This document shows positions 6,593 through 43,857 of a stretch of DNA of 43,857 nt, one piece after another (within the stretch, counting starts at the first letter, position 1; every line of letters begins with the position of its first letter). The DNA is from Pseudomonadota bacterium. GTDB taxonomy: Bacteria > Pseudomonadota > Alphaproteobacteria > Acetobacterales > Acetobacteraceae. The translations under genes and the position numbers were made by a program. Location of the stretch: NCBI GenBank assembly GCA_019351895.1, contig JABBOH010000021.1, forward strand, positions 1 to 43,857, in the 5' to 3' direction. Under the pieces are notes generated by a model. It saw only the letters and a program-made list of their open reading frames with translations, was not told the DNA's origin and did no database searches.

Positions 6593-6605
6593 TGTTCAGG
6601 CACGT

Positions 6606-17880: not shown

Positions 17881-17928
17881 AGTCGCACCCTCCATTCGGC
17901 GCTTATGACCGCGCCTGCCGATCCGGCT

Positions 17929-27323: not shown

Positions 27324-27335
27324 GCTCGCCTCCCG

Positions 27336-28418: not shown

Positions 28419-29490
28419 GCGCCGCCTCCCCGCCACGGCCGAGAAGCGCGCCGGTGGCGCGGTCGTAGACCAGCAGGCCCCCGGCGCTCACCGCGAACGG
28501 AAACGGCGAGCCCATGTCGAGATGCGCGACGCTCGGCGACGGCACAGAGGTCACCAGCGTCTCGCCGCCGGCATCGAAGTAGACCACGCATTCGGCGCCG
28601 ATGTTCTCCATCAGGCGGATGGTGGCGGGCGCGCCATCCGGACGGTGCAGGATATGCTCGGGCCGCGCCGCGACCGCCACGTCGCCGACGAAGTTGGTCG
28701 GCCGGTCCATGCGGAAATCGACGATGCCGGTACGGCAGAGCCCGCCCGCCTCCAGCCGTCCGGGCAGCACGTTGCAGCGCGGGAAGCCGACAAGCTCGGC
28801 GGCGCGCAGGTGCCGCGGCTGTTGATAGAGCGCGGCCGCCGCATTGGCGTCGATGACATGACCGGCATCGAGCACGATGAGATCCTCGGCCATGGTCAAG
28901 GCTTCCAGACTATCGGAGGTGACGTAGAGGAAGGTGGCGTTGAGCTCTCCCCGCATGTCCTTGAGGTCCTCCATCAAGCTCTCGCGGAGCTTGAAGTCGA
29001 GGCCGACCAGCGGATCGTCGAGCAGGAACAGATCGGCGTTCTTGAGCATGCCGCGTGCGATGGCGGTCCGCTGCTTTTCGCCGCCGCTGAGCTGGGCAGG
29101 CCGCTTCCTGAGCAGCGGCCGGATGCGCAGGATGTCCGCCACCTGATCGACCCGGCGCTCGATCTCGCTGCGCCCGACCCTCTGGAGCGCCAGCGGATAG
29201 GCGATATTGTCGAAGACGCTGACATGCGGGAAGAGCGCGAAGGACTGCGGGACGTAGCCGATGCGGCGCTCGGCGGCCGGCACATCGGTGATGTCACGGT
29301 CATTGATGAGGATGCGGCCTCGGCTCGGCTGCTCCAGCCCCACCAGCAGGCGCAGCAGAACCGACTTGCCCGCGGCAGGCGGGCCGCAGACCACGGTCAG
29401 GCTCTGCGATGCGATCTCCACTGTGACATCCTTGAGGGCATGGATGTCCCGATAGTGGCGGCTGACGCCTTGAAGCCGGACGCTGCTCAT
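28411..29490 (-). CDS. Carbohydrate-type ABC transporter ATPase 1, with degenerate catalytic residues
   Basis: MalK-like ATPase, 359 residues, with a C-terminal OB/TOBE region. Walker A (GPPAAGKS, 36-43), Q-loop (VPQSFALF) and signature (LSGGE, 134-138) are intact, but the Walker B catalytic Glu is Asp159 (LLDDP) and the H-loop His is Ser192 (VTSDS). It should therefore hydrolyse poorly at its own Walker site and lend a good signature to ATPase 2. The start overlaps the small membrane-protein gene by four bases. Two different ATPase genes side by side also occur in rhizobial glycerol-type importers. Confidence 0.9.
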   Translation of the reverse strand: MSSVRLQGVSRHYRDIHALKDVTVEIASQSLTVVCGPPAAGKSVLLRLLVGLEQPSRGRILINDRDITDVPAAERRIGYVPQSFALFPHVSVFDNIAYPLALQRVGRSEIERRVDQVADILRIRPLLRKRPAQLSGGEKQRTAIARGMLKNADLFLLDDPLVGLDFKLRESLMEDLKDMRGELNATFLYVTSDSLEALTMAEDLIVLDAGHVIDANAAAALYQQPRHLRAAELVGFPRCNVLPGRLEAGGLCRTGIVDFRMDRPTNFVGDVAVAARPEHILHRPDGAPATIRLMENIGAECVVYFDAGGETLVTSVPSPSVAHLDMGSPFPFAVSAGGLLVYDRATGALLGRGGEAAHA

Positions 29491-29762
29491 CCGCCCAGCC
29501 GCGCGAGGTAAGGGACGAGCAGGATGCCGGCCGCGAAGACGACAGCAATGATCGCGAGCAGCAGAACGGTGAGGCGCAGCGCCCGGCCCAGGCTGGCGTT
29601 GCGCGGCAGGTTACCGACCGCGATGTTGAGGATGGTCGCGGCCATGACGGTGAGAAGCCCGATCTGAAAGAGGCCGAAGCTCCATTGCTGCACGATCAGC
29701 AGGAAGCCCAGCACCATGATGAGGATAAGCGCGAGTTCCGCGCGCGGCACGATCCCGCGCAT
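29487..29762 (-). CDS. Small membrane protein of the ABC operon
   Basis: Unrecognised 91-residue protein with about three hydrophobic segments (LALILIMVLGFLLIVQQW, FQIGLLTVMAATILNIAVG, LTVLLLAIIAVVFAAGILL) and basic residues between (RNASLGRALR). It shares one base with the permease stop and overlaps ATPase 1 by four bases, so it is certainly translated with the transporter. Some other two-ATPase carbohydrate importers carry a small membrane protein at this place, but the tryptophan-rich sequence I associate with DUF2160 is not seen. It may be an accessory transporter subunit. Confidence 0.8.
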   Translation of the reverse strand: MRGIVPRAELALILIMVLGFLLIVQQWSFGLFQIGLLTVMAATILNIAVGNLPRNASLGRALRLTVLLLAIIAVVFAAGILLVPYLARLGG

Positions 29763-30595
29763 CAGACCTCCCCCCGCACGGTGCCGAAGGTCATGCCCAC
29801 CAGCAGATAACGCTGGAAGAAGTACACGACGAGAATCGGCGGCACGATGTAGACGGTCGTGAGCGCAGAGATGAATGTCCAGTCGACGCCGCCATTCGAA
29901 TAAAGGCCGCTCGCCAGCGCCACGGGAATGTTGGAGGTCGAGAGGCCGCCGATGATGTAGTTGAACAGGAACTCGTTCCAGACGAAGATGAAGTTGAAGA
30001 TCGAGGCGGCGATGACGCCCGGCATGACCTGCGGCAGGATGGTGCGGGTGATGATGCGCAACCAGGACGCGCCGTTGATGATGCCCGTCTCATCGAAACG
30101 CGGCGAAACGCCATCGATGAAGCCCTTCAGGATCCAGACCGAGAAGGGGATCGAGAACATCGCATAGAACAGGATCATGCCGGCATAGGTGTCCTTCCAG
30201 CCGAAGGCCACATACATCAGGTAGACGGGCAGGATCGCCGCCGACCCCGGCAGCATGCGGATCGACAGCAGCAGGAACATCAGGAAGTTCGTGCCGCCAG
30301 GCTTGAAGCGGGAGAAGGAGAAGGCGGCCAGGAACGAGACCGCGACCGCAATCAGCACCGAGGCCACCGACAACACGGCGCTGTTGAACAATTCGCGCGG
30401 GAACGCCCGGCTCGAAAAGAGCTTGGCATAGTTCGCGACGGTCGGCGTGAAGATCAGCTTCGGCGGCACGGCGAGGATCTGGTCGCCGGTCTTGAAGGAG
30501 CAAAGGACAATCCAGAGGATCGGCGCGAAGAAGATCAGCGCCACCAGCCACAGCAGCGCATGATAGGCATGTTCCCGCCAGCTCGTGCGCCTCAT
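29762..30595 (-). CDS. Carbohydrate ABC transporter permease (MalG type)
   Basis: Inner-membrane permease, 277 residues from ATG 30595 (MRRTSWRE), which overlaps the stop of the other permease by four bases. A longer open frame to 30982 is discarded. Six hydrophobic segments are visible, beginning ALLWLVALIFFAPILWIVL. The MalG-type EAA loop reads DETGIINGASWLRIITRTILPQ (given in short: motif residues about 185-205). It should form the transmembrane heterodimer with the upstream permease. The final segment ends in a short charged tail. Confidence 0.9.
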   Translation of the reverse strand: MRRTSWREHAYHALLWLVALIFFAPILWIVLCSFKTGDQILAVPPKLIFTPTVANYAKLFSSRAFPRELFNSAVLSVASVLIAVAVSFLAAFSFSRFKPGGTNFLMFLLLSIRMLPGSAAILPVYLMYVAFGWKDTYAGMILFYAMFSIPFSVWILKGFIDGVSPRFDETGIINGASWLRIITRTILPQVMPGVIAASIFNFIFVWNEFLFNYIIGGLSTSNIPVALASGLYSNGGVDWTFISALTTVYIVPPILVVYFFQRYLLVGMTFGTVRGEV

Positions 30596-31566
30596 GGCGA
30601 GGCCTCCCGCCGCTCGCGCCAATGCAGCACGAAGATGAAGGTCGCCGTGAAGGCGATTGAGATCAGCAGCAGGATGACCGCGAGCGCCGAGGAGGAGCCC
30701 ATGTTGAACGCCTCGAAAGCGCGGCGATAGAGCGTCATCGCTACCAGTTGTGTGGTCGAGCCCGGGCCGCCATAGGTCATGTCGTAGATCAGGTCCATGG
30801 TCTTGAAGGCGTCGATGGTGCGGAGCAGAATCCCGAGCATCAGGATGAACTTCCCGTGGTGCAGAACGATCAGCCGCAACCGCTGATGCCAGGCGAGGCG
30901 GTCGATTTCCGCCGCCTCCAGCTCCGCCTTCGGCACCGAGGCAAGGGCCGCCAGCGTCATCAGCACCATAAACGGCGTCCACATCCAGACGTCGACGGCA
31001 AGGACCGCGCCGAAGGCCACGTGGCTGTCACCGAGGAAGTCGACACTGCGGAAGCCCAGACCGCGGATCATGAAGTTGAGCACGCCGAAGGTCGGGTCGT
31101 AGATCAGCCGCCAGAAGGTGCCGGCGGCGACCGGCGTCAGCACCATGGGTGCGAAGAGCATCGTCAGCGCGATGCGTCGTCCCGGCAAGCGGTGGCTGTT
31201 CCAGAACAGCAGGCCGAGCGCCACGCCGAAGATCGTCTCCAGCGCCACCGCGAAGAAGACGAAGATGAAGGTGCGGCTGAGATCGAACCAGATGCCGGCG
31301 TCGTTGAGGATGGTCTGGTAGTTGTAAATTCCGGCGAAGCGCGGCGGGCGGCCACTGGTCAGCGAAAAGCGGTAGAAGCCGAGACCCAGCAGCCAAAGCG
31401 TCGGGATCAGGTTCCAGACGATGAAGAAGATGAGAACCGGGATGAGGAGCAGTAGGGGGAGGACCTCGCGCCGGCCGAGAAACCGCGTGAAGCCATCCCA
31501 CAACCCGTGTCTGGCGGCCGGCGCATCGCGCGTTGGAGTCAAGGCCGCGGGTGCGCCGGTCTCCAT
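30592..31566 (-). CDS. Carbohydrate ABC transporter permease (MalF/UgpA type)
   Basis: Inner-membrane permease of 324 residues with a polar N-terminal tail of about 35 residues and six hydrophobic segments. FLGRREVLPLLLLIPVLIFFI opens the core (given partly). The EAA loop is ELEAAEIDRLAWHQRLRLIVL, matching UgpA/MalF permeases (AEIDGAS pattern changed to AEIDRLA). It begins two bases after the binding-protein stop region and overlaps the second permease by four bases. Specificity cannot be read from it. Confidence 0.9.
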   Translation of the reverse strand: METGAPAALTPTRDAPAARHGLWDGFTRFLGRREVLPLLLLIPVLIFFIVWNLIPTLWLLGLGFYRFSLTSGRPPRFAGIYNYQTILNDAGIWFDLSRTFIFVFFAVALETIFGVALGLLFWNSHRLPGRRIALTMLFAPMVLTPVAAGTFWRLIYDPTFGVLNFMIRGLGFRSVDFLGDSHVAFGAVLAVDVWMWTPFMVLMTLAALASVPKAELEAAEIDRLAWHQRLRLIVLHHGKFILMLGILLRTIDAFKTMDLIYDMTYGGPGSTTQLVAMTLYRRAFEAFNMGSSSALAVILLLISIAFTATFIFVLHWRERREASP

Positions 31567-31568
31567 GC

Positions 31569-33062
31569 CTAGAGCCGGATGCCGCTGCAGGAACCGCTTG
31601 GGGCGTTGTTCGCGGTTCCCTCGTCATACAGAATGCCCTGCTGCCGGCAGGCGATGTATTTCAGCACATGGGCAGGGTCTTTGTACTCGCCTGTCATGTA
31701 GCCGTTCCAACCCTCCTGCTGTGTCGCCAGCATTTCCGCGTAGCGCGGATCATGCCAGAAGTCGCTGCTCCGCTGCAGCATGTATTTGTAGGTGCGGTTC
31801 CACGGGTAGATGTCGTCGAAGCCTGAACTCGTGAGCGTTGCCTTGTCGCAGGGCAGACCGCCGCGCTTGAGGTAGTCGGCAGAGGTCTGGGGCAGGTACC
31901 ACCAGCGCATGAAGTCGAGCGCGACATGCATGTGCTCGGGGTCGTTGAAGGCGTTGATGACCCAGGGCTGGCCGCCGATGATGTAGTTGCGGCGAAGCGT
32001 TCCGCTCGCATCCTTGAAGCCCGGCGGCGGCACGACCATCACCTTGCCCTTCAATGCGTCGGGTACCATCGTGGCGCCGGTCGCAACCCACTGCCACGCG
32101 GCGAAGACCTTGCCCTGCGTAAAGGCGTCGACGACTTCGGCAATGAAGTAGTTGAGTGCGCCCGGGGGGTTCCACTCAAGCATCGACTTGTAGAGTTCCA
32201 TCGCCTTGGCATTGGTCGGCGTATCCATGATCCCCTCGACCTGCCCGGTTTTCGGGTTCCAGATATCGCCGCCCATGCTGCGGATGAAGGAGATCAAGGG
32301 ACAACTCACCGCATCGTATTCACGCGAATACTGCATCGCGATGCCGTAGTGGCCCTTGTCCGGACGATTGAAGAAGGCGACGAGCTTCTTCCAGTCGTCG
32401 AGGTCCATCTTCTCGAAGTCTTCCCAGGTCATCGGCATCGGCGTGCCGTATTTGGCCTTGTAGGCGTCCGCCTCGCCCGGCGCCTCGAGCCAATCCTTGC
32501 GGATGAAGATGCCCTCGATATCGCCGACCTGCGGAAAGCCATAGAGATTGTCGGTGCCATCCGGGTAGACCTGATAGGCGGCGCGCACGACCGGCGCGTA
32601 CCACTCGATGTTGAGCGCCGGATCCTTGGCGATGATGTCGTTGAGCTTGACGATCCACTTCGGCGTCGCGAGCGCGCCGAGCCACTGGCTGTCGCTGATA
32701 ATGATGTTGTATTCCTGGCTCCTCGTCGCGAGGGAGGTTGCCGCCTTCTGGAACAGCTGGCCGAAGGGCGCGCCGGCGAAGGAGAAGGTCACGTCGTATT
32801 TGTAGCGGTCCTTCACATATCGCGCGAAGTCGGGAGACATGTCGACGCCGAGGCTGCTCGGCAACCAACCGGCAACGCCGAGGATCGACATGTGGATGGA
32901 TTTTCCGGCGAGAGGATGCGCATCCTGCGCGCGGGCGATATTCGGCGTGTAGAGCGCGGTCGCACCCAATGCCGCCGCACCGGTCAGCAATGTCCGACGC
33001 GGCAGGACCAGTTTGGTCGGTTGAGCAGAGAGCATAGGCGAAGTCGTTTCTTTCTCAGACAC
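31569..33062 (-). CDS. Extracellular solute-binding protein, family 1, Tat-type signal
   Basis: Periplasmic receptor of 497 residues, longer than most family-1 binding proteins. An internal twin-arginine signal (LPRRTLLTGAAALGATAL, residues about 19-36) is followed by cleavage near ARAQ. The mature part has the family pattern (VKLNDIIAKDP, YGFPQVGDIEGIFIRKDWL, PMTWEDFEKM, VFAAWQWVATGATMVPDAL). It starts at GTG 33062 with AAGGGG upstream. Length and operon partners (two ATPases, small membrane protein, DhaK/DhaL) recall glycerol/polyol-type importers, but the ligand is unknown. A 105-base AT-richer gap before it may carry an internal promoter or processing site. Confidence 0.9.
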   Translation of the reverse strand: MSEKETTSPMLSAQPTKLVLPRRTLLTGAAALGATALYTPNIARAQDAHPLAGKSIHMSILGVAGWLPSSLGVDMSPDFARYVKDRYKYDVTFSFAGAPFGQLFQKAATSLATRSQEYNIIISDSQWLGALATPKWIVKLNDIIAKDPALNIEWYAPVVRAAYQVYPDGTDNLYGFPQVGDIEGIFIRKDWLEAPGEADAYKAKYGTPMPMTWEDFEKMDLDDWKKLVAFFNRPDKGHYGIAMQYSREYDAVSCPLISFIRSMGGDIWNPKTGQVEGIMDTPTNAKAMELYKSMLEWNPPGALNYFIAEVVDAFTQGKVFAAWQWVATGATMVPDALKGKVMVVPPPGFKDASGTLRRNYIIGGQPWVINAFNDPEHMHVALDFMRWWYLPQTSADYLKRGGLPCDKATLTSSGFDDIYPWNRTYKYMLQRSSDFWHDPRYAEMLATQQEGWNGYMTGEYKDPAHVLKYIACRQQGILYDEGTANNAPSGSCSGIRL

Positions 33063-33167
33063 GGCCCATTCCCCTTATATATTCGCCCGCTTATGCGGAG
33101 GCTTTATTCTCTTGGACGCTAACCCGTTATCGTTGCCGTTGCAATCGGCACGCGTTACTCCTATCGA

Positions 33168-34166
33168 CTAGATGCCCCAGCGGAGGGCCGGCGTATGCAC
33201 AGTCGCGTCCCACAGCGCCGCCATCTCGGTATCGAGCGCTGTCACCGTCAACGAACAACCCGCCATGTCCAGCGATGTCACGTAGTTGCCGACGAGCGAA
33301 CGGACCACGGTGACGCCACGCGCCTCCATCTGCGCGCGGGCCGCGTGATACATCACATAGAGTTCCATCAGCGGCGTGCCGCCAAAGCCGTTGACCAGCA
33401 GCAGCGCGCTGCCCGGAGCAGAACCGCTCCCGGCCAGATCGTCGAGGATCGCGGTCACCATGTCCTGCGCCAGCGTGTCGGCGTTGCTGTGCTTCGCGCG
33501 ACGCCGTCCCGGCTCCCCATGGATGCCGACGCCGATTTCGATCTCGTCGTCCGCAAGCTGGAAGGTCGGCTTTCCGGCCGCCGGCACGGTGCAGCTGGTG
33601 AGCGCCACGCCCATCGACCGCGTTGCCTTGTTGACGCGCTCGCCGAGCGCGCGACAGGCCGCGAGATCGTCGCCGCGTTCGGCGGCGGCGCCGACGATCT
33701 TCTCCACGACGACTGTGCCCGCGACGCCACGGCGCCCGTTCGAGAAGGTTGAAACTTCAACGGCGACATCGTCATCCACCAGAACCGCCTCGGTCGTGCG
33801 CCCGGTCTCCATTTCGCGCGCCATGTCGAAGTTCATGACATCGCCCTCGTAGTTCTTGACGATGAACAGAATGCCGGCGCCGCCGTCCACGGCTTCCGCC
33901 GCCGCCATCATCTGGTCCGGGGTGGGCGAGGTGAAGACTTGGCCAGGACAGGCGGCATCCAGCATGCCATGGCCCACGAAGCCGGCATGCAGCGGCTCAT
34001 GCCCGCTGCCGCCGCCGGAGACGAGCGCGACCTTGCCGGGCGTGAGGCGGGCCCGCCGGACGAACTTGCGCTCCTCCCCGAGCGTCACGAGATCGGAATG
34101 GGCGGCCGCAAAGCCGTCGAGGCTTTCTGCCAACACGGACTCAGGCACATTGATGAGCTTCTTCAT
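33168..34166 (-). CDS. Dihydroxyacetone kinase subunit DhaK-like
   Basis: Substrate-binding half of a two-subunit dihydroxyacetone/tetrulose kinase, 332 residues, cytosolic. Family features: GKVALVSGGGSGHEPLHAGFVG, FTSPTPDQ, IVKNYEGDVMNFDMA and GIHGEPG holding the histidine that forms the covalent hemiaminal with the ketose. It overlaps dhaL by four bases. No DhaM or PTS phosphocarrier gene is in the window, so an ATP-dependent or unlinked-DhaM reaction must be asked. Given its partners (epimerase, dehydrogenase) the substrate may be a ketose other than dihydroxyacetone, as in DerK/LerK erythrulose kinases. Confidence 0.92.
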   Translation of the reverse strand: MKKLINVPESVLAESLDGFAAAHSDLVTLGEERKFVRRARLTPGKVALVSGGGSGHEPLHAGFVGHGMLDAACPGQVFTSPTPDQMMAAAEAVDGGAGILFIVKNYEGDVMNFDMAREMETGRTTEAVLVDDDVAVEVSTFSNGRRGVAGTVVVEKIVGAAAERGDDLAACRALGERVNKATRSMGVALTSCTVPAAGKPTFQLADDEIEIGVGIHGEPGRRRAKHSNADTLAQDMVTAILDDLAGSGSAPGSALLLVNGFGGTPLMELYVMYHAARAQMEARGVTVVRSLVGNYVTSLDMAGCSLTVTALDTEMAALWDATVHTPALRWGI

Positions 34167-34765
34167 GCTCTGTCCCCCATGGCGCTGCAGATCGCGACGA
34201 TGATGAGCGCCGCCGATCGGGCGCCTGCATCCATGCCGCCGACGCTGCGCTCGGCCAGAAACGAAGCGCGGCCGCGAATGGCCTGCATGCCGGCGGTGGC
34301 CTCGGCCGCGGCGAGTGCGGCGGCGGCTATGTCCGCGGCGGGATCGCGCAGCGCTTTCGCCACCGGCCCCAGCACGTCCAGCATCGTCTTGTGTCCGAAG
34401 TCCGCCTTGCCGCGAGCACGCACCGCAGCCACGGCCGCATCCATGGCCGCCGCCGCATCCGCGCGCGTCGGGTCTTCCGGGAGCGCCTTTCCCGCGGCCA
34501 TGAAGGCCGTGCCGAAGATCACGCCCGATGCGCCGCCGACGGTCATCACCAATGTCCGCCCGACCTCCTGCATCGCCTCGGGCAGCGGCTTCGCAACGAT
34601 GGCCTCTCGCTTGCTCATGACGGCGGTGAAGCCACGCTTCATGTTCAGCCCGTGATCGCCATCGCCTTGGGCGGCGTCGATCTCCGTCAGCTCCTCGGCA
34701 TGGGCCGAAATCGTTTCAACGATCGCGTCCAGAAGTGCCCGCCGCTTCGTTTCATCTACCGGCAT
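34163..34765 (-). CDS. Dihydroxyacetone kinase subunit DhaL-like
   Basis: Nucleotide-binding half of the kinase, 200 residues, all-helical barrel. The Mg-nucleotide aspartates are visible as D30, D35 and D37 (IDAAQGDGDHGLNM), and the C-terminal GGMDAGARSAALI corresponds to the conserved G-x-x-D-P/A-G-A loop. Separate DhaK and DhaL genes are typical of PTS-dependent systems; ATP-dependent kinases are more often fused. The start is ATG 34765, 63 bases after the epimerase stop, and its stop overlaps DhaK. Confidence 0.92.
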   Translation of the reverse strand: MPVDETKRRALLDAIVETISAHAEELTEIDAAQGDGDHGLNMKRGFTAVMSKREAIVAKPLPEAMQEVGRTLVMTVGGASGVIFGTAFMAAGKALPEDPTRADAAAAMDAAVAAVRARGKADFGHKTMLDVLGPVAKALRDPAADIAAAALAAAEATAGMQAIRGRASFLAERSVGGMDAGARSAALIIVAICSAMGDRA

Positions 34766-34828
34766 TCTGCCACCGATTTTCGCTTTTGCGGCAGCATGGC
34801 GGATCGGCGGCAGCGGGGCAAGACCGAT

Positions 34829-35698
34829 CTAGGCCGTGGCCGTTGCGTCTTCGAGCCGTCGCCACTGCGCGCGGAGAAAGTCGTGGCCGGATGTCACAAG
34901 TTCCTCATCCGAATGGAAGAAGTCTCGCCACACGCGCGTCGCCGCTGCGACCTCGGGCAACGCGCGGCCGAACGCCTCGATCACGCACCAGCCGTCATAG
35001 CCGCCGATCCGCAGCGCGGACAGCGTCGCCGCCCAGGGAATGTGCCCCTGCCCCGGCATGCCACGATCATTCTCCGACAGATGAACGTGGCCGATGCGGG
35101 CGAGATGCGGAGCAATGACGCCGACCGGGTCCTTCTCCTCGATATTCGCATGGAAGGTGTCGTAGAGCATGCCGTAGTTCGGCATCTGCACGGCATCGAC
35201 GACCGCCGCCGCCGCTTCGACCGTGTTCATCAGGTAGCATTCGAACCTGTTCAGGGGCTCGACAGCGAGCGTGACCCCCTGCGCCGCCGCATGGCGCGCG
35301 GCGGCGCGGTGAACCTCGACGACATGCGCCACCTCATCGGCCGTCGGCGGCGAGCCTGAGAAGACGCCGAGCGGCTGGTGAAAGGGACCGCACAGCACCT
35401 CCCCGCCCGCGGCGGCGATGCAGTCGATGGCCCAGGTCAGATGGGCGAGTGCGGCCGCCCGCACGGCCGCGTCGCCGCTGGAGCAGTCGTGCGCCGCGTC
35501 TGGCATGATGGCGAGGCCGGTGCAGCGTAGCCCCGCATCCCGCACCGCCTCGCCAACCATGTGATAGTGTTCCGGCGTGCCTTCGAACAGCGGCAATTCG
35601 ACCCCGTCGTAACCCGCCGCCTTCAGCTGCGCGAAGCGCGGGAACAGGGCCGGCGTCACCACGGGCGACCACAGCAGCAGATTCAACCCGAGGCGCAT
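34829..35698 (-). CDS. Ketose 3-epimerase-like TIM barrel (DTE/hydroxypyruvate isomerase family)
   Basis: Cytosolic xylose-isomerase-like TIM barrel, 289 residues. Metal ligands of the D-tagatose 3-epimerase family are visible in order: Glu in LAVEPLNRFECY (about residue 152), Asp in LYDTFHANIEE (about 185), His in IGHVHLSEND (about 211) and Glu in CVIEAFG (about 246). The DTFHANIEE string is especially like psicose/tagatose 3-epimerases and L-ribulose 3-epimerase. It begins three bases after the dehydrogenase stop. It could epimerise a free ketose before DhaK/DhaL phosphorylation, or act on a keto-sugar made by the dehydrogenase. Confidence 0.87.
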   Translation of the reverse strand: MRLGLNLLLWSPVVTPALFPRFAQLKAAGYDGVELPLFEGTPEHYHMVGEAVRDAGLRCTGLAIMPDAAHDCSSGDAAVRAAALAHLTWAIDCIAAAGGEVLCGPFHQPLGVFSGSPPTADEVAHVVEVHRAAARHAAAQGVTLAVEPLNRFECYLMNTVEAAAAVVDAVQMPNYGMLYDTFHANIEEKDPVGVIAPHLARIGHVHLSENDRGMPGQGHIPWAATLSALRIGGYDGWCVIEAFGRALPEVAAATRVWRDFFHSDEELVTSGHDFLRAQWRRLEDATATA

Positions 35699-35701
35699 CG
35701 C

Positions 35702-36853
35702 TCAGGCGCCTCCGGCAGCCACCTTGACCCACTGCCGGTCCCGGGCAGATCGCAGAACCGCATCGGTGACATGATCCGTGCGCAGCGCCTCCCGGAAACT
35801 CGGGATGGTCGTCACGCCGGTCTCGAGACCCTCGAGGAAATCCGCCATCTGATGGATGAAGCTGTGCTCGTAGCCGATCTGCAGACCCGGCACCCACCAG
35901 CGTCCCATATAGGGATGATCGCTGTCCGTGACGTGGATCGATCGCCAGCCACGGGTGATGCCGGGATCACGATGGTCGAAGATTTCGAGCCGATGCAGAT
36001 CGTGCAGATCCCAGGCGATCGAGCCATGCTCGCCGTTGATCTCAAGCGTGTAGAGCGCCTTGTGGCCGCGCGCATAACGCGTCGCCTCGAAGGTCGCGAG
36101 CGAGCCGTTGTCGAACCTCGCGAGAAAAGCCGAGGCGTCGTCGATTGTGACCGGCTGCACCTGACCGATGACGGTATGGTGGCGCTCGCGGATGAAGGTT
36201 TCGGTCATCGCCGAGACTTCGCGGATGCCGCCGTTCAGCCACATGGCGGTATCGATGCAATGCGCGAGCAGGTCGCCGGTCACGCCGCTGCCCGCGACCG
36301 CAGCATCGAGACGCCAGAGCCCGGCGCCGCCTTGCGGCAGATCCGCCGAGATCGTCCAGTCCTGCAGGAACTTCGCCCGATAGTGGAAAATGCGGCCGAG
36401 GCGTCCCTCCTCCACCAGTTGCTTCGCCAGCATCACGGCGGGCACACGCCGGTAGTTGTACCAGACCATGTTGGGAACGCCCGCCGCTTCCACCGCCTCC
36501 ACCATCGCGGCGCTCTCGGCGGCGCTGCGGCCCAGCGGCTTCTCGCAGGCCACCATCTTACCGGCCTTCGCGGCGGCAATCGCAATCTCGGCATGCGTGC
36601 TGTTGGGCGTCGCGATATCGATCAGGTCGATGTCCGGCCGCGCGACAAGCGCCTTCCAGTCAGTCTCGACGCTCTCGTAGCCCCAGGTTTCGGCAAAGCT
36701 CCGCGCGGCGTCCCCGCTTCGCGCACAGACAGCCTTGAGCACAAGATCGTAGCCGGGATCGAAGAAAGTCCGGACCTGACGGAAGGCGTTGCTGTGGGTG
36801 CGACCCATGAAGCCGCACCCGACGAGACCGACATTGAGCGTCTTGCGTGCCAT
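35702..36853 (-). CDS. Gfo/Idh/MocA family oxidoreductase
   Basis: NAD(P)-dependent sugar or polyol dehydrogenase of 383 residues. N-terminal Rossmann fold: [17 protein letters not shown], then [21 protein letters not shown] and the catalytic-lysine motif CEKPLGRS. The C-terminal alpha/beta domain has [21 protein letters not shown] (shown to 20 residues or less as blocks) and [15 protein letters not shown] with the catalytic His. Relatives oxidise inositol, levoglucosan (at C3) and glycosides. It is third from the probable promoter end, two genes from DhaL, between two TIM barrels; dehydrogenase plus isomerase-like TIM barrels is the layout of 3-keto-sugar pathways. Start ATG 36853 has AGAGGCGGG upstream. 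Confidence 0.9.
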
Positions 36854-36868
36854 CTGCGGGACCCGCCT

Positions 36869-37912
36869 CTAATCGTGCCAGCCGTGCGCATCGCGGACCG
36901 CGATCATCGCCCGCAGGACATCGACCCAGGTTTCGGGTTTCAGCATCACGTCGTTAGGGAACATGCAGCCGTCCCAACAGATATGCTGCATCGCGCGCGT
37001 CGGCTCGCCGTCCGCTCCACGCAGCCAGTATCCCGAATCCCGTACGAGATCGAGCTTGCCGTTCGGGTCGTTCGGCAGGCAGTGACGCCCGGTCTGCTCG
37101 TGCGTGCCGGCGCCCTTAACGGTCGCGTCGTTTTGCGCCACGTGAAAGTCGATTGTCCAAGGCCGCAGCGCGTCCGTCATCTTCTTCAGCGCCGCCTGCA
37201 GCATGGCCGGATCATCCCAGTTGAAGGTCTGCGGCAGGATGCGGTCCTGCTCCGCATTGACCCCGAGCGTGTAGAGAAGCGTGTGGGCCATGTCGGCCTG
37301 GAAACCGAGCCGCTCGGGACGCCCCACGCCTTCCAGAACCTGCACCATGGTGCGCCAACTCTGCATGCCGCCCCAGCAGACTTCGCCTTCGGCGGCTAAT
37401 CGCTCGCCATGCGCCTCGGCCGCGTCGCAGGCCCGTCCGAAGGTCTCGATGATGAGGCGGGTGTTGCCGGCGGGATCGGCGTCCCAAGCCGTCACGCCGC
37501 CGGCGGAATCGATCCGCACGACGCCGCTCGGGCGGATGCCGAGCCGCCGCAGGGTCGCGCCGATGCGGCAGGCCTTCTCGACCTGCAGCACGAAGCGGTC
37601 GCGCTCCTCGGCGCTGCCCATGGCCGACCCGCCACCCACAGGCGGCCAGACCGGCGCCACGAGCGAGCCGACGACGAGTTCCTTGGCCGCAACCTGATCC
37701 GCCAGCCGCTTGAGGTCGTCCTCGGTCGAATCGATGCTGGTGTGAGGCTCGGACAGGAAAAGATCGACGCCGTCGAAATGCTGCCCATCGACCTCCGCCG
37801 CCGCCGTCAGGTCGAGCAGCGTCTCGAAGGCGATGAAGGGTTCCGAGCCCGGCCCCTTCCCGACGATGCCGGGCCACATCGCATTATGAAGCTTCGGACG
37901 ATTGTGTGACAC
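36869..37912 (-). CDS. Xylose isomerase-like TIM-barrel protein
   Basis: TIM-barrel protein of 347 residues related to sugar phosphate isomerases/epimerases, function not assigned. Visible features: FDGVDLFLSEPHTSIDST early in the barrel, EGEVCWGGMQSW and GFQADMAHTLLYTLG in the middle, TIDFHVAQNDATVKG with possible metal ligands, and THEQTGRHCLPNDPNGK with MQHICWDGCMFPND near the C terminus. GTG 37912 is the start, with GGGAGGG about six bases upstream. It is the first gene of the catabolic operon, 15 bases before the dehydrogenase. It may be an isomerase, dehydratase or lyase acting on the keto-sugar. Confidence 0.85.
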   Translation of the reverse strand: MSHNRPKLHNAMWPGIVGKGPGSEPFIAFETLLDLTAAAEVDGQHFDGVDLFLSEPHTSIDSTEDDLKRLADQVAAKELVVGSLVAPVWPPVGGGSAMGSAEERDRFVLQVEKACRIGATLRRLGIRPSGVVRIDSAGGVTAWDADPAGNTRLIIETFGRACDAAEAHGERLAAEGEVCWGGMQSWRTMVQVLEGVGRPERLGFQADMAHTLLYTLGVNAEQDRILPQTFNWDDPAMLQAALKKMTDALRPWTIDFHVAQNDATVKGAGTHEQTGRHCLPNDPNGKLDLVRDSGYWLRGADGEPTRAMQHICWDGCMFPNDVMLKPETWVDVLRAMIAVRDAHGWHD

Positions 37913-38146
37913 GTCACCCTCCCTGCCCGCCCGGGCCGGACGACGTCAGCGGCAGCACCGATGACGCATCAATGAGCAAGGGCGGACAGCACGTCAGTCG
38001 TTGCGAGTTCGGCAGAGCACGCGGAGGATGATCCCGAGCGTGAACCTAGAACCTTCTTTTGCGACACACGAGCGTGAGGCGTAATCCGTACGAGGGACAA
38101 GAAGCACATTTACCGAAAGTCGGCTTCACAGCCGCTGAACATGTGT

Positions 38147-38179
38147 CAGACCGAACTAGACATTAGTTCGTTCTGACGG
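38147..38179. promoter_or_regulatory. Large palindrome, candidate operator
   Basis: Left arm 38147-38160 (GTCAGACCGAACTA) and right arm 38166-38179 (TAGTTCGTTCTGAC) match at 13 of 14 positions around a five-base centre. The inner seven bases are perfect. On the minus strand it covers the spacer and -10 of a sigma70-like promoter, so it is well placed for a repressor. The regulator is not in the window. Confidence 0.6.
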
Positions 38180-38185
38180 TCAAGC
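38157..38185 (-). promoter_or_regulatory. Putative sigma70-type promoter of the catabolic operon
   Basis: Read on the minus strand: TTGACC (38185 to 38180), 17-base spacer, then TCTAGT (38162 to 38157). The -35 matches the consensus at five of six positions, the -10 at four. Transcription would begin near 38150, leaving a leader of about 240 bases before GTG 37912. Prediction by eye. Confidence 0.4.
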
Positions 38186-38258
38186 GTGCTTCCACGGCGC
38201 GTTTGTTGCTGCATCGCAGCAGCGATGCGGGCTGTGATCTGGGCGCCGAGACGCCGCA

Positions 38259-38888
38259 TCAGGGTCGTGCGCGCAGGGCCCGCACGCGCGTGACTATAAA
38301 AAAGCCGATCGCCACGAGGATCAGGACACCGACTACCAGGTCAAGATCGTGCATCACGGCGTGCAGGCGCGGGTTGTTGTTCCATTGCTCCCCGAGCTTG
38401 TAGCCGACCCAGGCGAGCGCGAAGCACCAGGGCCAGGAACCGACGAAGGTGTAGATGTGAAACTTCAGCCGGTTCATTCGCGCGATCCCGGCGGGGAGCG
38501 CGATGAAGGTGCGGATGATCGGCAGCACGCGGCCGATCAGCACGCTGATAGCGCCGTAGCGGATGAAGAGCCGATCGACCCGGTCGAGCTCGTGCCGGTC
38601 GAGCAGCACGTAACGGCCCCAGCGCTCCAGGAACGGCCGACCGCCCCAGGCGCCGACTTCATAGGCGACGGCTGATCCGATATTGCAGCCGATGGCGCCG
38701 AAGGTCGCGGCCAGGAACAGATTGAAGCGACCGACCGAGGCCAGGTAGCCGGCGAAGGGCATAATGACCTCCGAAGGGATCGGCAGGCAGGCCGATTCCA
38801 TCGCCATCAGGACGACGAGGCCGGGATACCCCGCGGTGGCGATCACCTCCGTGACCCAGTGGGCGAGGCCTTGAAGGCTGGCGTGCAT
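38259..38888 (-). CDS. DedA family membrane protein
   Basis: Integral membrane protein of 209 residues (DedA/SNARE-associated family). Visible: YPGLVVLMAMESACLPIPSEV, the family ESxxxPxPxE motif, FAGYLASVG, the glycine-rich GAIGCNIGSAVAYEVGAWGG, and GRVLPIIRTFIALPAG, which carries the conserved arginine essential in E. coli YqjA/YghB. Such proteins act in lipid scrambling, proton-motive-force maintenance and resistance to cationic peptides. The ATG at 38888 has AAGGAT upstream and follows the histidine kinase stop by nine bases, so it ends the four-gene operon that starts at 41818. Confidence 0.93.
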   Translation of the reverse strand: MHASLQGLAHWVTEVIATAGYPGLVVLMAMESACLPIPSEVIMPFAGYLASVGRFNLFLAATFGAIGCNIGSAVAYEVGAWGGRPFLERWGRYVLLDRHELDRVDRLFIRYGAISVLIGRVLPIIRTFIALPAGIARMNRLKFHIYTFVGSWPWCFALAWVGYKLGEQWNNNPRLHAVMHDLDLVVGVLILVAIGFFIVTRVRALRARP

Positions 38889-38897
38889 GAGAAATCC

Positions 38898-40304
38898 TTA
38901 GATTGCGCCCCGGATCGGGACAGCGGGCGGCGCATTACTACACACGGTCGCACGAAAATGCAGGCTGACGCGCAACCCGGGCGACAGGCTCTCGATTGCC
39001 AGCCTGCACCCATGCAGCTCCGCGACCGCGGAAACCAGACTCAGCCCAAGCCCGTTTCCCACCGTCGTCCGGCTCCGTTCACCTCTATAGAAACGATGGG
39101 TGAGCCGCGGCAAGTCGTCCACGGCGACCCCCGGCCCGTCATCCTCGACCGTCAGCCAGCAACCTGCGCGTTCCCGCCTTAACTGAAGCCTCATGACCGT
39201 GCCGGAGGGCGTGTGCCGCAGCACATTCTCGACGAGATTTGCCACAGCCTGCGTCAGCAGCTCACGATCGCCATGAACAATGATGCCGGGCTCCGCGTCG
39301 GCCTCGATGACATGACCCGCATCTTCCGCGTCGGGGCGGTAGGCGTCGACGACCGCATCGATGACTGCTGAGATATCAACGTCGCGAAACGCGGACCGCG
39401 GCGAGGCCCCTTCGACCTGCGCGATGCGCAGAAGCGCCGAAAAGGTTTCCATCAGCGCCTCGGCATCCGCCAATGCGCCCAGGACGGCGTGTTGATAATC
39501 CGTAACGGATCGCGCGTTGTCCCGCGCGTCGTCAAGCTTCTGGTACAGGCGGGACAGCGGCGTGCGTAGATCATGCGCGATATCCGAACTCACCTGACGC
39601 AGGCTCTCCATCAGGGCGTGAATACGGTCCAGCATGTGGTTGAGCGTCCCGGCCAGCCGGTCCAGATCGTCGCCGCCACCTCGGACCGGAATGCGGCGCG
39701 CAAGATCGCCGGCGATGATGGCCTCGGCGGTCCGGCCGATCGCGTCGACGCGGGCAAGGAAGGCGCGGCTCAGGAGCACGCCCCCGCCAATGCCGAGCAC
39801 GACCGCAAGCCCCACGGCCCAGGCGAATGCGGTCGCGATCGCCTCCTCCACCTGCGCAATCCGCGAGAGATCGTCGCCGACGGCAAGAAGCAGGCCGCCA
39901 CCAAGATCGACGACCAATGCACGGACCTGCTCGGACGGCTCGTGGTCCGTAGTGCCCTCGTCGGTCGCAAGGTTGATCCAACCCGGTCGCAGGTGAGGCT
40001 GCAACGGAATCTCGCCGGCCAGCCGAGTGCCTTCCGCGGTCTGCAGGAGGTAGTCGGGCGCGGAGGGCTCGTGGCCCCGCGCGTTGATCAGCATTTGTAG
40101 GTGGCGCAGGCCGCCGCTGCGATACTGTTCCTGCAGGAATGCGGAATCCGACTGAACCTCGGCTGCCAGTTGCTGCTCCAGACTGCTGCGCGCCACCACG
40201 AAGACCGCTACACCGAGGATGCAGGCGGAGATAGCGAACAGCAGGACATAAAGCGCGGCGAACCCGAAGCTCGCCGTGCGGAGCAGCCTAAGAACCGGGC
40301 GCAC
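38898..40304 (-). CDS. Membrane sensor histidine kinase (HAMP type)
   Basis: Inner-membrane kinase of 468 residues. Two membrane helices (about residues 13-36 and 158-180) flank a periplasmic sensor of about 120 residues without recognised fold. A HAMP domain follows (RVDAIGRTAEAIIAGDLARRI), then HisKA with H-box SSDIAHDLRTPLSRL and HATPase with NLVENVLRHT, DDGPGV and GNGLGLSLV. This is the type common beside OmpR regulators for metal, peptide or envelope signals. Start is GTG 40304, overlapping the regulator stop by 17 bases, hence coupled expression. DedA follows nine bases after its stop. Confidence 0.92.
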   Translation of the reverse strand: MRPVLRLLRTASFGFAALYVLLFAISACILGVAVFVVARSSLEQQLAAEVQSDSAFLQEQYRSGGLRHLQMLINARGHEPSAPDYLLQTAEGTRLAGEIPLQPHLRPGWINLATDEGTTDHEPSEQVRALVVDLGGGLLLAVGDDLSRIAQVEEAIATAFAWAVGLAVVLGIGGGVLLSRAFLARVDAIGRTAEAIIAGDLARRIPVRGGGDDLDRLAGTLNHMLDRIHALMESLRQVSSDIAHDLRTPLSRLYQKLDDARDNARSVTDYQHAVLGALADAEALMETFSALLRIAQVEGASPRSAFRDVDISAVIDAVVDAYRPDAEDAGHVIEADAEPGIIVHGDRELLTQAVANLVENVLRHTPSGTVMRLQLRRERAGCWLTVEDDGPGVAVDDLPRLTHRFYRGERSRTTVGNGLGLSLVSAVAELHGCRLAIESLSPGLRVSLHFRATVCSNAPPAVPIRGAI

Positions 40305-40971
40305 GCATGATGTATCCGGATCCGCGCACGGTATGGATCAGTTCGGGCTCGCGCCCGCCGCGTGAAATCTTGCTGCGGAGACGGCTGATATGGCTCTCCA
40401 CGATATTAGTCCGCGGGTCGAAGTGAAACTCCCAGACGCCCTCGAGCAGCATCGTTCGCGTCACGACGCGGTCGGCGTGACGCATCAGGAATTCGAGCAA
40501 CAGGAACTCACGCGGCTGCAACTCGACCCGCTGACCGCCGCGCGTCACGACACGCTTGAGGAGATCGAGTTCCAGATCCGCGACGCGCCACAGCGTCGGC
40601 GGATTCTTCAATGGCGGCCGGCGGGCGAGCGCCTGCAGGCGCGCAAGCAGTTCTGAGAAGGCGAAGGGCTTCACGAGGTAGTCGTCGGCCCCTGCCTCCA
40701 ACCCCTGCACGCGGTCGCCGACCCCGCGCAGCGCCGTCAGAAACAGGACCGGCGTCTGCAAGCCAGCGCCGCGTAGAGTGCGCACGAAACCGAGTCCCTC
40801 CATCACCGGCAGCATGCGATCCACGACCATCACGTCGTAGTCGCTGCCGCTCGCCAGGAAAAAGCCCTCGCGCCCGTCCGGCGCGTGGTCGGCTTGATGC
40901 CCATGTTCCCGCAGACCACGCAAGACGTAGGCTGCGGTCTCCTCATCATCCTCCACGAGTAGCACGCGCAC
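40288..40971 (-). CDS. OmpR/PhoB-family response regulator
   Basis: Two-component regulator of about 227 residues. Receiver with acidic pocket EDDEE, phosphoacceptor Asp in VMVVDRMLPVMEG, Thr in VLFLTALRG and Lys in DDYLVKPFAF; a DNA-binding winged helix with LQPREFLLLEFLMRHADRV split by the loop and VESHISRLRSKI and IHTVRGSGYIM at the end. ATG 40977 directly abuts AAAGGAG, too close to be used well; GTG 40971 has six-base spacing and begins at VRVLLVEDD, so I prefer it. It is 34 bases after the repeat membrane protein stop and is the likely controller of both divergent promoters at 41819-42140. Confidence 0.93.
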   Translation of the reverse strand: MRVLLVEDDEETAAYVLRGLREHGHQADHAPDGREGFFLASGSDYDVMVVDRMLPVMEGLGFVRTLRGAGLQTPVLFLTALRGVGDRVQGLEAGADDYLVKPFAFSELLARLQALARRPPLKNPPTLWRVADLELDLLKRVVTRGGQRVELQPREFLLLEFLMRHADRVVTRTMLLEGVWEFHFDPRTNIVESHISRLRSKISRGGREPELIHTVRGSGYIMRAPGS

Positions 40972-41005
40972 CGTCATCTCCTTTGCTGTAGCGGCGGACC
41001 CGGCG

Positions 41006-41818
41006 CTAACCTTCGACGGCGCCGGACCGTGCCGCCTCCCGTGCATCCGCGTGGCGTCGTTCAATCGTGAGGCGCCGGACGAGGCCCACGATGATCGCCA
41101 GGAAAACGAAGCTTGTGATCGTCGTCCCGACACCGAGCCCCCCATCCTTGAGCGGCTGCGACAACAGGTCGCCGCAAGACGCCCCCAGGGGTCTGGTCAG
41201 GATATAGGCCAGCCAGAAGCACAGCACGGCGTTCACCTTGAAGATAAAGTAGAGGCCCGTGATGAAAGCGATCATCGCGGCGAAAATCAGCAGGGACGGA
41301 AAATAGCCGAGGTTAAGGCGTTCGGCCATCAGGTCCCCCGCCGCGGTACCGAGCGCGAAGGTGAAAAGGATGGCGGCCCAGTAGAAAAGCTCCCGCCGCA
41401 TGGTGACGATGCTGTGGATCGAGAGCGTCTTTTCGCTCGCATACCAGAGCATGAAGGTGACGGAGAGCAGAATGGCGAAGACCGGGGTCGTCACCATAAG
41501 GCTGACACCGAGGTTGTCGCTGAGGTTGTCGGTGATGAGCGTCCCGACGATGCTGACGAGGACGACTGTGAGCCAGTAGACCGAGGGGATGTATCGGCCC
41601 GACCTCACCTGCACCAGCAGTACCCCCAGAAGTACGGCTGCCATGCCGATCGAGGTGAGAGTGAGCCCGATGCCGAGGGTGACGTTCAGAAAGTCGGCCG
41701 CCGTCTCGCCTACTGTCGTGGCGAGGACCTTGATGATCCAGAATATCAGGGTGACTTCCGGCACCTTGTTAAGCATACGCCGGTCGAGCCAATTGATGGA
41801 TAATGAGGTCGCTGACAT
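41006..41818 (-). CDS. Four-repeat membrane protein, copy A (COG4705-like)
   Basis: Membrane protein of 270 residues, about eight helices, resembling uncharacterised COG4705 proteins. Four copies of a motif, aromatic-Trp, nine residues, Gly, four residues, Asp, start at Phe26, Tyr81, Tyr146 and Phe201; offsets 55, 65 and 55 suggest duplication of a 120-residue half, itself a duplication. Each repeat places an Asp (42, 97, 162, 217) near a helix end. Other conserved blocks: NKVPEVTLIFW and TLSIHSIVTMRRELFYW. The ATG at 41818 has AAGGAG seven bases upstream. It is first in an operon with regulator, kinase and DedA. Transport or ion sensing is guessed. Confidence 0.87.
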   Translation of the reverse strand: MSATSLSINWLDRRMLNKVPEVTLIFWIIKVLATTVGETAADFLNVTLGIGLTLTSIGMAAVLLGVLLVQVRSGRYIPSVYWLTVVLVSIVGTLITDNLSDNLGVSLMVTTPVFAILLSVTFMLWYASEKTLSIHSIVTMRRELFYWAAILFTFALGTAAGDLMAERLNLGYFPSLLIFAAMIAFITGLYFIFKVNAVLCFWLAYILTRPLGASCGDLLSQPLKDGGLGVGTTITSFVFLAIIVGLVRRLTIERRHADAREAARSGAVEG

Positions 41819-41922
41819 CCGGTCTCCTTAAGCTGCTGCAGGCGGCGTCGAACACGCCCGATCGGCTGAGGTGTCCGCATTTGTCATGTCCCGCATTGAA
41901 GGAGCTAGCCCGGGGGGTTGTG

Positions 41923-41935
41923 ACTTCCCAATGTT
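41923..41935 (+). repeat. 13-bp direct repeat, copy 1
   Basis: ACTTCCCAATGTT, exact match to copy 2 at 42025-42037. Here it continues TTCCC-N4-TTCCC, two half-sites nine bases apart, a layout compatible with OmpR-family binding. The nearest start is 41818 on the minus strand. Confidence 0.6.
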
Positions 41936-42024
41936 CCCGGGCGCCGGCCGGGCGGCCGCGGGTCGCGACCATCCAGGCGGCCCCCCTTCAAGGTCCTGCC
42001 GCTGCCGCCGCGTCAAAGATGAGA

Positions 42025-42037
42025 ACTTCCCAATGTT
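42025..42037 (+). repeat. 13-bp direct repeat, copy 2
   Basis: Exact repeat of 41923-41935, same orientation, 102 bases away. The next bases also agree partly (CCG after one mismatch). It lies 103 bases before the ATG at 42141. Candidate binding site for the regulator at 40288-40971. Confidence 0.6.
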
Positions 42038-42140
42038 GCCGCCCGAACGGTGACGCGGCCTTGGGCTGACGTTAAGAACCCACGGCCTCGGACGGACCGG
42101 CTCCGAGCCGCGATACGGCTGCAGCACGATTTTCGAGGAG

Positions 42141-42965
42141 ATGCCCACGCTTATGGATATGTCGAAGGCAAGGCAGAGCCCGCGGGGGCGGATAATGTGG
42201 TCAAAGGTCCCCGAAATCACCATCTACTTCTGGATTGTCAAAATCCTGACGACCGCAATGGGTGAGGCGACCTCCGATTATCTCGTCTTTCACATCAACC
42301 CGGTCATCGCGGTCGTGCTCGGCGCCGTGGGCCTACTGGTGGCACTGATCCTGCAGCTCGCGGTCGCGCGATACGTCGCCTGGATCTACTGGCTCCTCGT
42401 GGTGATGGTCGCCATCTTCGGCACAATGGCGGCGGACGTCGTCCACGTCGTGATCGGCATCCCCTACGTCGTCTCCACTACCGGCTTCGCGCTCGCGCTG
42501 GCAGCGATCATCGCGCTATGGTCGGCCACTGAGGGCACGCTCTCGATCCACAGCATCGTCACACGACGCCGTGAGCTCTTCTACTGGATGACCATCTTCG
42601 CAACCTTCGCGCTTGGCACCGCAGCTGGGGACATGACCGCTGCCACACTGCACCTCGGCTATTTTGGCTCCGGCCTGCTCTTCCTCGGCCTCTTCATCCT
42701 CCCGGCCATCGGCTACTGGAAATTCGGCTTCAACGACGTATTTGCCTTCTGGTTCGCCTACATCATGACCCGTCCACTCGGCGCCTCCTTCGCCGACTGG
42801 TTCGACAAGCCACCCCGCATGGGGGGGCTCGGGCATGGCAGCGCCTCGGTCAGCATTGTCCTGACCGTCTTCATCGTCATTTTCGTGGCCTACCTGACGG
42901 TGACGCGTATCGACGTGGAGCGGAGGGCGCGTGTGACGCCGGAGGGCGTGCGGGCGCCGCTCTGA
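42141..42965 (+). CDS. Four-repeat membrane protein, copy B (COG4705-like)
   Basis: Paralogue of copy A, 274 residues, about eight helices. The aromatic-Trp-x9-Gly-x4-Asp motif occurs at Phe30, Tyr83, Tyr148 and Phe203, with Asp at 46, 99, 164 and 219. Blocks shared with copy A: SKVPEITIYFW, TLSIHSIVTRRRELFYW, TFALGTAAGD and AYIMTRPLGAS. Start uncertain: ATG 42141 directly abuts GAGGAG, so ATG 42153 is also possible. It is divergent from copy A and monocistronic here; its stop is 22 bases from that of the convergent oxidase gene. Confidence 0.86.
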   Translation: MPTLMDMSKARQSPRGRIMWSKVPEITIYFWIVKILTTAMGEATSDYLVFHINPVIAVVLGAVGLLVALILQLAVARYVAWIYWLLVVMVAIFGTMAADVVHVVIGIPYVVSTTGFALALAAIIALWSATEGTLSIHSIVTRRRELFYWMTIFATFALGTAAGDMTAATLHLGYFGSGLLFLGLFILPAIGYWKFGFNDVFAFWFAYIMTRPLGASFADWFDKPPRMGGLGHGSASVSIVLTVFIVIFVAYLTVTRIDVERRARVTPEGVRAPL

Positions 42966-42987
42966 CGTGCAGCCTGGACCCGATCCT

Positions 42988-43857
42988 TTAATCCGGCAGC
43001 AGTTTGCCCGGGTTGAGGATTCCCGACGGGTCCAGCGCCGCCTTTACCGAGCGCATGACGGCAAGCGCCCCCGCCCCGTGCTCCGTCTCCAAGAAGCCCC
43101 GTTTGCCAGCGCCGACGCCATGCTCGCCGCTGCAGGAGCCCCCCAAGGCCAAACCGCGCGCCACAATGGCCCGGTCCAGCGCCCAAGCGCGCTCCATGCC
43201 TCCCTCCTCGGGCGGCACCAGGATGACCGTGTGGAAATTCCCGTCTCCGACATGGCCCACCATCGGGGCCAGCAGGCCCGAGGCCTCGATATCGGCCTTG
43301 ACGCCAAGCACCGCATCGGCAAGCCGCGAGATAGGCACGATAGTGTCGGTGATGAGTGCCCCGTAGGTGGGCCGCATCGCCCGGCAGGCCCAGTAAGCAT
43401 CGTGCCGCGCCCGCCACAACCTCGCCCGATCGTCCGCATCGGTAGCCCAGGCGAAGCCCTCCGCCCCATTGTCGAGCGCCAGCGCCTCGACCTGCGCGGC
43501 CTGCTCGGCGACGCCCGCCGGCGTGCCGTGGAACTCGAAGAACAGCGTCGGCAGCGGCCGCAGATGATTAAGCTGCGAATAGGCGACGCAAGCTTCCACC
43601 TGCACCTCGTCCAGCAGTTCGATCCGCGCGACCGGGACGCCGATCTGCATGATCTCGATCACCGTCTCGACGGCCCGCGCCATGTCCTGGAACTGGCAGG
43701 TTGCGGCTGAAATGGCTTCTGGTATGCCATGCAGCCGCAGCTGGATTTCGGTGATGATGCCGAGCGTGCCCTCGGACCCGATGAAAAGCCGGGTGAGATC
43801 GTACCCCGTTGAAGACTTGCGGACGCGCCCGCCGGTGCGGATCACCTGCCCATCCGC
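42988..43857 (-). CDS. FAD-linked oxidase, D-lactate/glycolate dehydrogenase-like, 5' part outside window
   Basis: C-terminal 290 residues of a flavoprotein of the D-lactate dehydrogenase (cytochrome)/GlcD family. The frame is open to the window edge (ADGQ before the GTG at 43845), so the N-terminal FAD-binding half is mostly absent. Visible: STGYDLTRLFIGSEGTLGI, the end of the FAD-binding domain, then a cap domain and the C-terminal GHVGDGNFH metal/flavin motif and GSCSGEHGVGAGK, with LDPSGILNPGKLLP at the end. These are diagnostic for 2-hydroxyacid dehydrogenases that pass electrons to cytochrome or quinone. No partner gene is visible. Confidence 0.92.
   Translation of the reverse strand, partial: ADGQVIRTGGRVRKSSTGYDLTRLFIGSEGTLGIITEIQLRLHGIPEAISAATCQFQDMARAVETVIEIMQIGVPVARIELLDEVQVEACVAYSQLNHLRPLPTLFFEFHGTPAGVAEQAAQVEALALDNGAEGFAWATDADDRARLWRARHDAYWACRAMRPTYGALITDTIVPISRLADAVLGVKADIEASGLLAPMVGHVGDGNFHTVILVPPEEGGMERAWALDRAIVARGLALGGSCSGEHGVGAGKRGFLETEHGAGALAVMRSVKAALDPSGILNPGKLLPD

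Follow-up and report, generated by a model that had tools for sequence, protein, structure and literature searches.

Gene content of the locus

The window, i.e., the whole stretch of 43,857 nucleotides analysed here, contains two divergently oriented genes for related proteins, referred to as A and B, together with a compact same-strand run of genes in the order A, response regulator (RR), sensor histidine kinase (HK) and DedA-type membrane protein (Table 1). The start of the regulator is probably Met57 (40977) rather than that of the listed open reading frame (41145), since family matches begin near residue 60. In case of regulator and kinase, the heavy-metal families TIGR01387 and TIGR01386 were the best NCBIfam matches, both scoring under their cut-offs (233.9 vs. 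279.2 and 192.9 vs. 292.55, respectively). The DedA-type protein matched best to the undecaprenyl phosphate transporter UptA (NF052604), also under cut-off (146.9 vs. 250), and passes the cut-off of the wider VTT/DedA family (80.2 vs. 33.9). The same gene set is present in a same-genus genome (L050) as well as in the actinomycete Aeromicrobium, there in the order RR-HK-DUF347-DedA-DUF347, DUF347 being the family of A and B (see below).

Elsewhere in the window, a PAP2-superfamily protein is encoded 24 kb from A (17167–17895), too far to be part of the locus, and a region with ABC-transporter, solute-binding, Dak1/Dak2, GFO/IDH/MocA and xylose-isomerase-like domains (26121–37912) looks like an ordinary carbohydrate cluster.

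Table 1 Features of the A/B locus (positions in the window)
Feature	Position	Strand	Remarks
DedA/VTT-domain membrane protein	38259..38888	-	9 bp gap after kinase
HAMP-containing sensor histidine kinase	38898..40304	-	17 bp overlap with regulator
OmpR-type response regulator	40288..40977	-	Probable start; 28 bp after A
Protein A	41006..41818	-	270 aa, DUF347 type I (MmfC1-like), 8 predicted helices
Repeat residues of protein A			Trp 27/82/147/202, Gly 37/92/157/212, Asp 42/97/162/217
A/B divergent intergenic region	41819..42140	.	Two copies of a 17-nt direct repeat
Protein B	42141..42965	+	274 aa, DUF347 type II, 8 predicted helices, divergent to A

Repeat motif and family membership

A and B share 45 % identity (260 columns). 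The motif aromatic-W-x9-G-x4-D, which the sequence-only reading of this DNA had located four times in each protein with identical internal spacing, was recovered at all eight places (residues 26, 81, 146 and 201 of A; 30, 83, 148 and 203 of B). Among 20,000 composition-preserving shuffles of A, one motif occurred in 25 and two or more in none; the corresponding shuffles of B yielded one motif in 56 cases, two in a single case and more in none. The fourfold motif in A and B is far above chance. It is also already catalogued: Pfam PF03988 (DUF347, "Repeat of Unknown Function") matches four stretches in A (4.3e-62) and four in B (2e-43), and both proteins score well beyond the curated cut-off of 28.2 bits (A, 206.6; B, 146.8). 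The family is described as a fourfold arrangement of two-helix units that all retain a Trp, and this agrees with the four stretches and eight predicted helices per protein and with retention of the Trp in 64/64 relatives. A and B thus differ in nothing from PF03988, the title of which gives no function, but are members of it. A third DUF347 paralogue (type III, 42 % identical to A) is encoded in the same genome on contig C72 (L049, 53–862); it lies at the contig end, before genes that read as a GntR-like regulator and a sugar-type ABC transporter.

Conservation among relatives

Two sets of relatives were compared. The first comprised 50 DUF347 open frames (those of the window plus 42 loci), 41 of which contain all four motifs if any residue is allowed before Trp, while eight contain three and one fragment contains two. 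The second set additionally included viral and plasmid loci and yielded 100 hits that aligned over more than 190 residues (shorter hits were dropped); filtering for redundancy by 4-mers left 64 rows. In the numbering of A, Trp 27, 82, 147 and 202 as well as Asp 42, 97, 162 and 217 are present in 64/64 relatives. Gly37, Gly157 and Gly212 are equally invariant (64/64), and Gly92 is found in 56/64, with Ala in the other 8. Free variation of the motif Gly and Asp, which the earlier reading had named as speaking against its own proposal, is therefore not what the homologues display (Asp 64/64; Gly 64, 56, 64 and 64 of 64). Invariance extends to Thr93, Thr158, Gly161, Arg209 and Gly227 (64/64 each). 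Lys30 and Glu38 are conserved in 56/64 rows each; they are lost jointly with Gly92 in the same 8 rows, in which Pro210 is changed too.

In this sample, DUF347 occurs in four bacterial phyla and also on plasmids. Relatives are encoded by 45 viral-contig loci from IMG/VR (L079–L123), 31 of which carry a 256–257 aa form sharing at least 97.7 % identity with that of L092.

Subfamilies and pairing

DUF347 genes are known from the mmf cassette of Tn6048 (Cupriavidus metallidurans; pHB44; pBYT1-2), for which induction by zinc/lead was reported (PMC2864759, PMC12029693), including upregulation of the mmf cluster with Pb and Zn (PMC12029693). In the tree of the 64 rows, mmf is represented by two L080 proteins (97 and 96 % identical to two pBYT1-2 cassette proteins). 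Type I is a set of 22 rows with A and the mmfC1 row (support 98/91), type II a set of 9 rows with B (100/99), and type IV a divergent set of 8 rows on long branches (100/100). The remaining 25 rows, including the mmfC2 row and the third paralogue, are referred to as type III, which does not form a single supported set. Since A and B fall into different supported subfamilies, and since I+II pairs recur in L050 of the same genus and in Aeromicrobium, a recent local duplication as origin of the pair is ruled out.

All seven fetched loci with two typed non-redundant members combine different types, namely I+II (window, L050 and L043), I+III (L041, L061 and L080) and III+IV (L067); this count leaves out L063 (one typed gene plus a fragment) and L124 (repeats L080). 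Many DUF347 members are single in their own locus.

Predicted structure and conserved helix faces

AlphaFold2 models of A (30 aligned sequences; pLDDT 92.7, pTM 0.88) and B (28 aligned sequences; pLDDT 90.5, pTM 0.85) consist of eight helices, with one helix hairpin per repeat. Foldseek searches against 350,542 PDB chains retrieved nothing at E ≤ 0.001 for either model (best E 0.52 and 0.78), and the query-normalised TM-score was at most 0.32 among the best 50 matches listed for each. The model of A also retrieved nothing at E ≤ 0.001 from the viral predicted structures of BFVD (best E 0.26), and sequence searches of the PDB, started from A and from the alignment of 30 rows, gave no match. A known fold was thus not assigned to A or B, though such searches may miss a match; the results would fit a fold that is still missing among solved structures, for which a failed search is no proof.

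Across the 64 rows, the odd-numbered helices are more conserved (2.64–3.03 bits per position) than the even-numbered ones (1.85–2.17). The conserved face of the odd-numbered helices has the same direction throughout the four repeats, between −21 and 0 degrees relative to Trp. Compared to 5,000 shuffles, the effect is significant in repeats 1, 2 and 4 (as large in 65, 16 and 101 shuffles, respectively), whereas repeat 3 is no better than the shuffles (1,161 as large). Conserved odd helices with faces aligned across the repeats are what a central pathway would lead one to expect. Judging by the loop charges, both termini would be cytoplasmic and the four Asp would lie near the periplasmic side. 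The ion or small-cation pathway with four acidic residues proposed from the sequence gains from the aligned faces but loses in its symmetry, as the face is not just acidic and Lys30, Glu38 and Arg209 break the fourfold pattern. With a conserved Lys and a conserved Arg, this face is a poor fit to a simple cation pore. A cation pathway would fit A and B as a candidate mechanism.

Origin of the repeats

Profile comparison related all six pairs of repeats, and likewise the two halves (E 3.7e-9). The closest pairs were R2-R3 (1.4e-11) and R1-R2 (5.5e-10), the weakest R2-R4 (4.1e-5). The two rounds of duplication suggested by the sequence-only reading predict that R1 resembles R3 and R2 resembles R4. 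By simple similarity, however, this pairing was best in only 12 of the 64 proteins, as compared to 41 for (R1,R4)(R2,R3) and 11 for (R1,R2)(R3,R4). Profiles and similarity pairings hence both disfavour the two-step scheme, the order of events being beyond what repeats of 45 residues can settle.

Divergent intergenic region

The gap between A and B contains a 17-nt direct repeat at 41923–41939 and 42025–42041 (16/17 alike), the copies of which hold CTTCCCAATGTT (41924, 42026) and lie about 105 bp from each start codon. The 4.7 Mb genome contains no exact occurrence of the 12-mer other than these two (41924, 42026). TTCCCAATGTT also recurs exactly in L050 (9035), 123 bp upstream of the A relative there, and in L051 (2220), where it lies at the listed start of the A relative. 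In the 58 sources scanned, 8 exact occurrences of TTCCCAATGTT compare to about 0.28 expected (uniform bases); 3 of these are within DUF347 coding sequence (L066, L083, L084) and 1 lies behind the 3' end of a DUF347 gene (L050:2310). When up to one mismatch was allowed, all 58 sources together gave 13 occurrences vs. about 9.6 expected, and there is thus no enrichment at this stringency. The direct repeat represents a candidate operator, i.e., a putative regulator site. Neither a sigma-70-like promoter nor a terminator was found in the A/B gap.

Linkage to lipid-carrier and regulatory genes

DUF347 is present in 26 of 100 same-family genomes (the window's own included; two of the 26 represent one genus), amounting to 31 loci. 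PAP2 genes are found within 3 kb in 5/31 loci vs. 0.13 expected (Poisson 3e-7), and DedA genes in 5/31 vs. 0.22 expected (Poisson 4e-6), kinship being ignored in both calculations. Linkage differs between subfamilies: PAP2 or DedA is encoded within 6 kb in 10/22 type I vs. 2/33 type III+IV rows (Fisher P 0.0008), and RR together with HK in 13/22 vs. 6/33 (Fisher P 0.003). Conversely, 9/22 type I and 20/25 type III rows have no RR+HK pair in the flank covered. Due to short flanks at viral loci and contig ends, the linkage counts are lower bounds. In L056 (3880–5931), a DedA-PAP2-LssY_C fusion protein adjoins a type III DUF347 gene.

Proposed function

The reading that we favour, at a rough probability of 0.4, is that A and B form a metal/envelope-stress transporter pair acting as effector arm of the two-component locus, with export of metals of the Zn/Pb class as the proposed activity. 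Both would be inner-membrane proteins with eight helices from four two-helix units, the four odd helices lining a central pathway. From cytoplasm to periplasm, its tiers would be formed by (i) the Trp residues, (ii) Lys30, (iii) Arg209, (iv) Glu38/Thr93/Thr158/Ala213, and (v) the four Asp, the last of which may bind a divalent Zn/Pb-class cation while it is being exported. A, regulator, kinase and DedA would be co-transcribed, and DedA may carry undecaprenyl phosphate back into the cytoplasm. Related loci would have a PAP2-type undecaprenyl-pyrophosphate phosphatase in place of DedA, and the phosphate released could precipitate the exported metal.

The four invariant Trp and Asp, the higher conservation of the odd helices with their aligned faces, the mmf-like locus, the lead-upregulated UppP-DUF347 operons of Frankia (PMC4531530), the linkage to PAP2/DedA and RR/HK, and the Aeromicrobium gene set count in favour of a metal transporter. 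On the other side stand the scores of regulator and kinase under the heavy-metal cut-offs and of DedA under that of UptA, the inconspicuous face of repeat 3, and the type I and III rows devoid of an RR+HK pair. Induction by metals such as Zn or Pb is more usual for export systems. This renders metal uptake (e.g., of iron) by DUF347 improbable in view of the reported Zn/Pb induction (PMC2864759), even though a plasmid with mmf, pHB44, let its host grow better when no iron was added, from which the authors proposed Fe/V import (PMC4914505). Their import reading counts against export, but the growth result stems from a whole-plasmid comparison with no single-gene test (PMC4914505).

The repeated linkage to PAP2 and DedA (10/22 type I rows within 6 kb) and the DedA-PAP2-LssY_C fusion adjoining a type III gene could also mean that A and B serve undecaprenyl-phosphate or envelope-lipid homeostasis, with DUF347 moving or protecting the lipid carrier and metals acting as inducers only via disturbance of the envelope. 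The higher bacitracin resistance of the host of an mmf-bearing plasmid, tied to mmfB (PMC4914505), points the same way. However, pMBUI8, which carries mmfA and mmfB without the rest, was also associated with bacitracin resistance, so that DUF347 is not needed for it (PMC4914505). Moreover, neither PAP2 nor DedA is encoded in the flank covered for 12/22 type I and 31/33 type III+IV rows, and the reported induction of Tn6048 is by metals (PMC2864759). We consider a role in lipid homeostasis unlikely, though less so than uptake. Least probable among the functions considered is that DUF347, instead of being a transporter, assists the histidine kinase as an additional sensor or as a scaffold: while type I is linked to RR+HK in 13/22 rows, 20/25 type III rows have no such pair in the flank covered, and four invariant Asp in predicted helices suggest a direct chemical role.

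Beyond the preferred export reading, one may speculate that DUF347 constitutes an unrecognised single-chain pseudo-tetrameric ion pathway with an inner ring of Trp and an outer ring of Asp in a fold absent from the PDB, and that members of different subfamilies sharing a locus function together, in connection with the recycling of undecaprenyl phosphate; taken as a whole, this is rather doubtful. New here are the conservation count, the two models with no PDB counterpart found, the pairing of types I and II, an mmf-like locus in a variant with DedA, and the statistical linkage to PAP2 and DedA genes. Eight invariant positions, two confident models, defined pairing subfamilies and a linked gene set make specific tests possible, so that it becomes approachable whether the four repeated Asp handle metal and whether A and B work together.

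Comparison with known systems

Four repeats per chain with one acidic residue each, as in A and B, are also a feature of pseudo-tetrameric channels such as CaV (EEEE locus) and of Trk/Ktr proteins. A and B differ from this group in that Foldseek retrieved no solved structure at E ≤ 0.001, in having no apparent pore loop and in bearing both Lys and Arg on the conserved face.

In the literature consulted, including PMC13192273 and PMC8299993, neither functional proof nor a structure was found for DUF347, PF03988, COG4705, the mmf genes or Tn6048. The absence of an assigned function stated by the sequence-only reading hence holds with respect to proof, but metal transport had already been proposed in print (PMC4531530, PMC9756366). 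In Frankia, DUF347 was described as a new potential metal transporter and three UppP-DUF347 operons were among the lead-upregulated genes, a diatom study (Davis 2006) being cited for metal induction (PMC4531530); DUF347 is also reported from marine algae (PMC9756366). The A/B locus shares with the Frankia operons, for which metal export was proposed, the combination of DUF347 with an undecaprenyl-lipid enzyme, but has DedA instead of UppP, and the Frankia paper counts six transmembrane segments where the A/B models have eight helices (PMC4531530).

The annotated order of the mmf cassette is PepSY-UppP-DUF347-MmfD-DUF347-RR-HK-EamA, and its role was read as metal import in the pHB44 study, with mmfB tied to bacitracin resistance (PMC4914505). 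MmfD is a small exported protein encoded between mmfC1 and mmfC2 (L124, 6777–7226). A DUF347 fusion protein on a Priestia plasmid contains a related C-terminal domain in duplicate (L128, C-terminal part of 5971–7491), the two domain copies matching at 5.7e-11 and 1.6e-11 in a three-sequence phmmer search. MmfD occurs in 3/100 same-family genomes, beside DUF347 in 3/3. No Pfam family was matched at E ≤ 0.1 by the one member scanned; an NCBIfam match (0.028; 1 of 9 members) and the best PDB match, to a lamin (E 0.037), were both taken as chance. MmfD had no match in the window's genome, and PepSY, UppP, MmfD and EamA had none at E ≤ 1e-4 near A/B (ORFs of at least 70 aa, window positions 36000–43857).

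Like the mmf cassette, the A/B locus combines two DUF347 proteins of different types with RR, HK and an undecaprenyl-lipid gene, and regulator and kinase directly after A have the position of an mmfR/mmfS-like pair. In contrast, A groups with the mmfC1 row (type I) but B belongs to type II and the mmfC2 row to type III, so that A and B do not form an mmfC1/mmfC2-type pair. Furthermore, B is divergent, and DedA stands where mmf has UppP. The A/B locus resembles the mmf cassette but is a different one.
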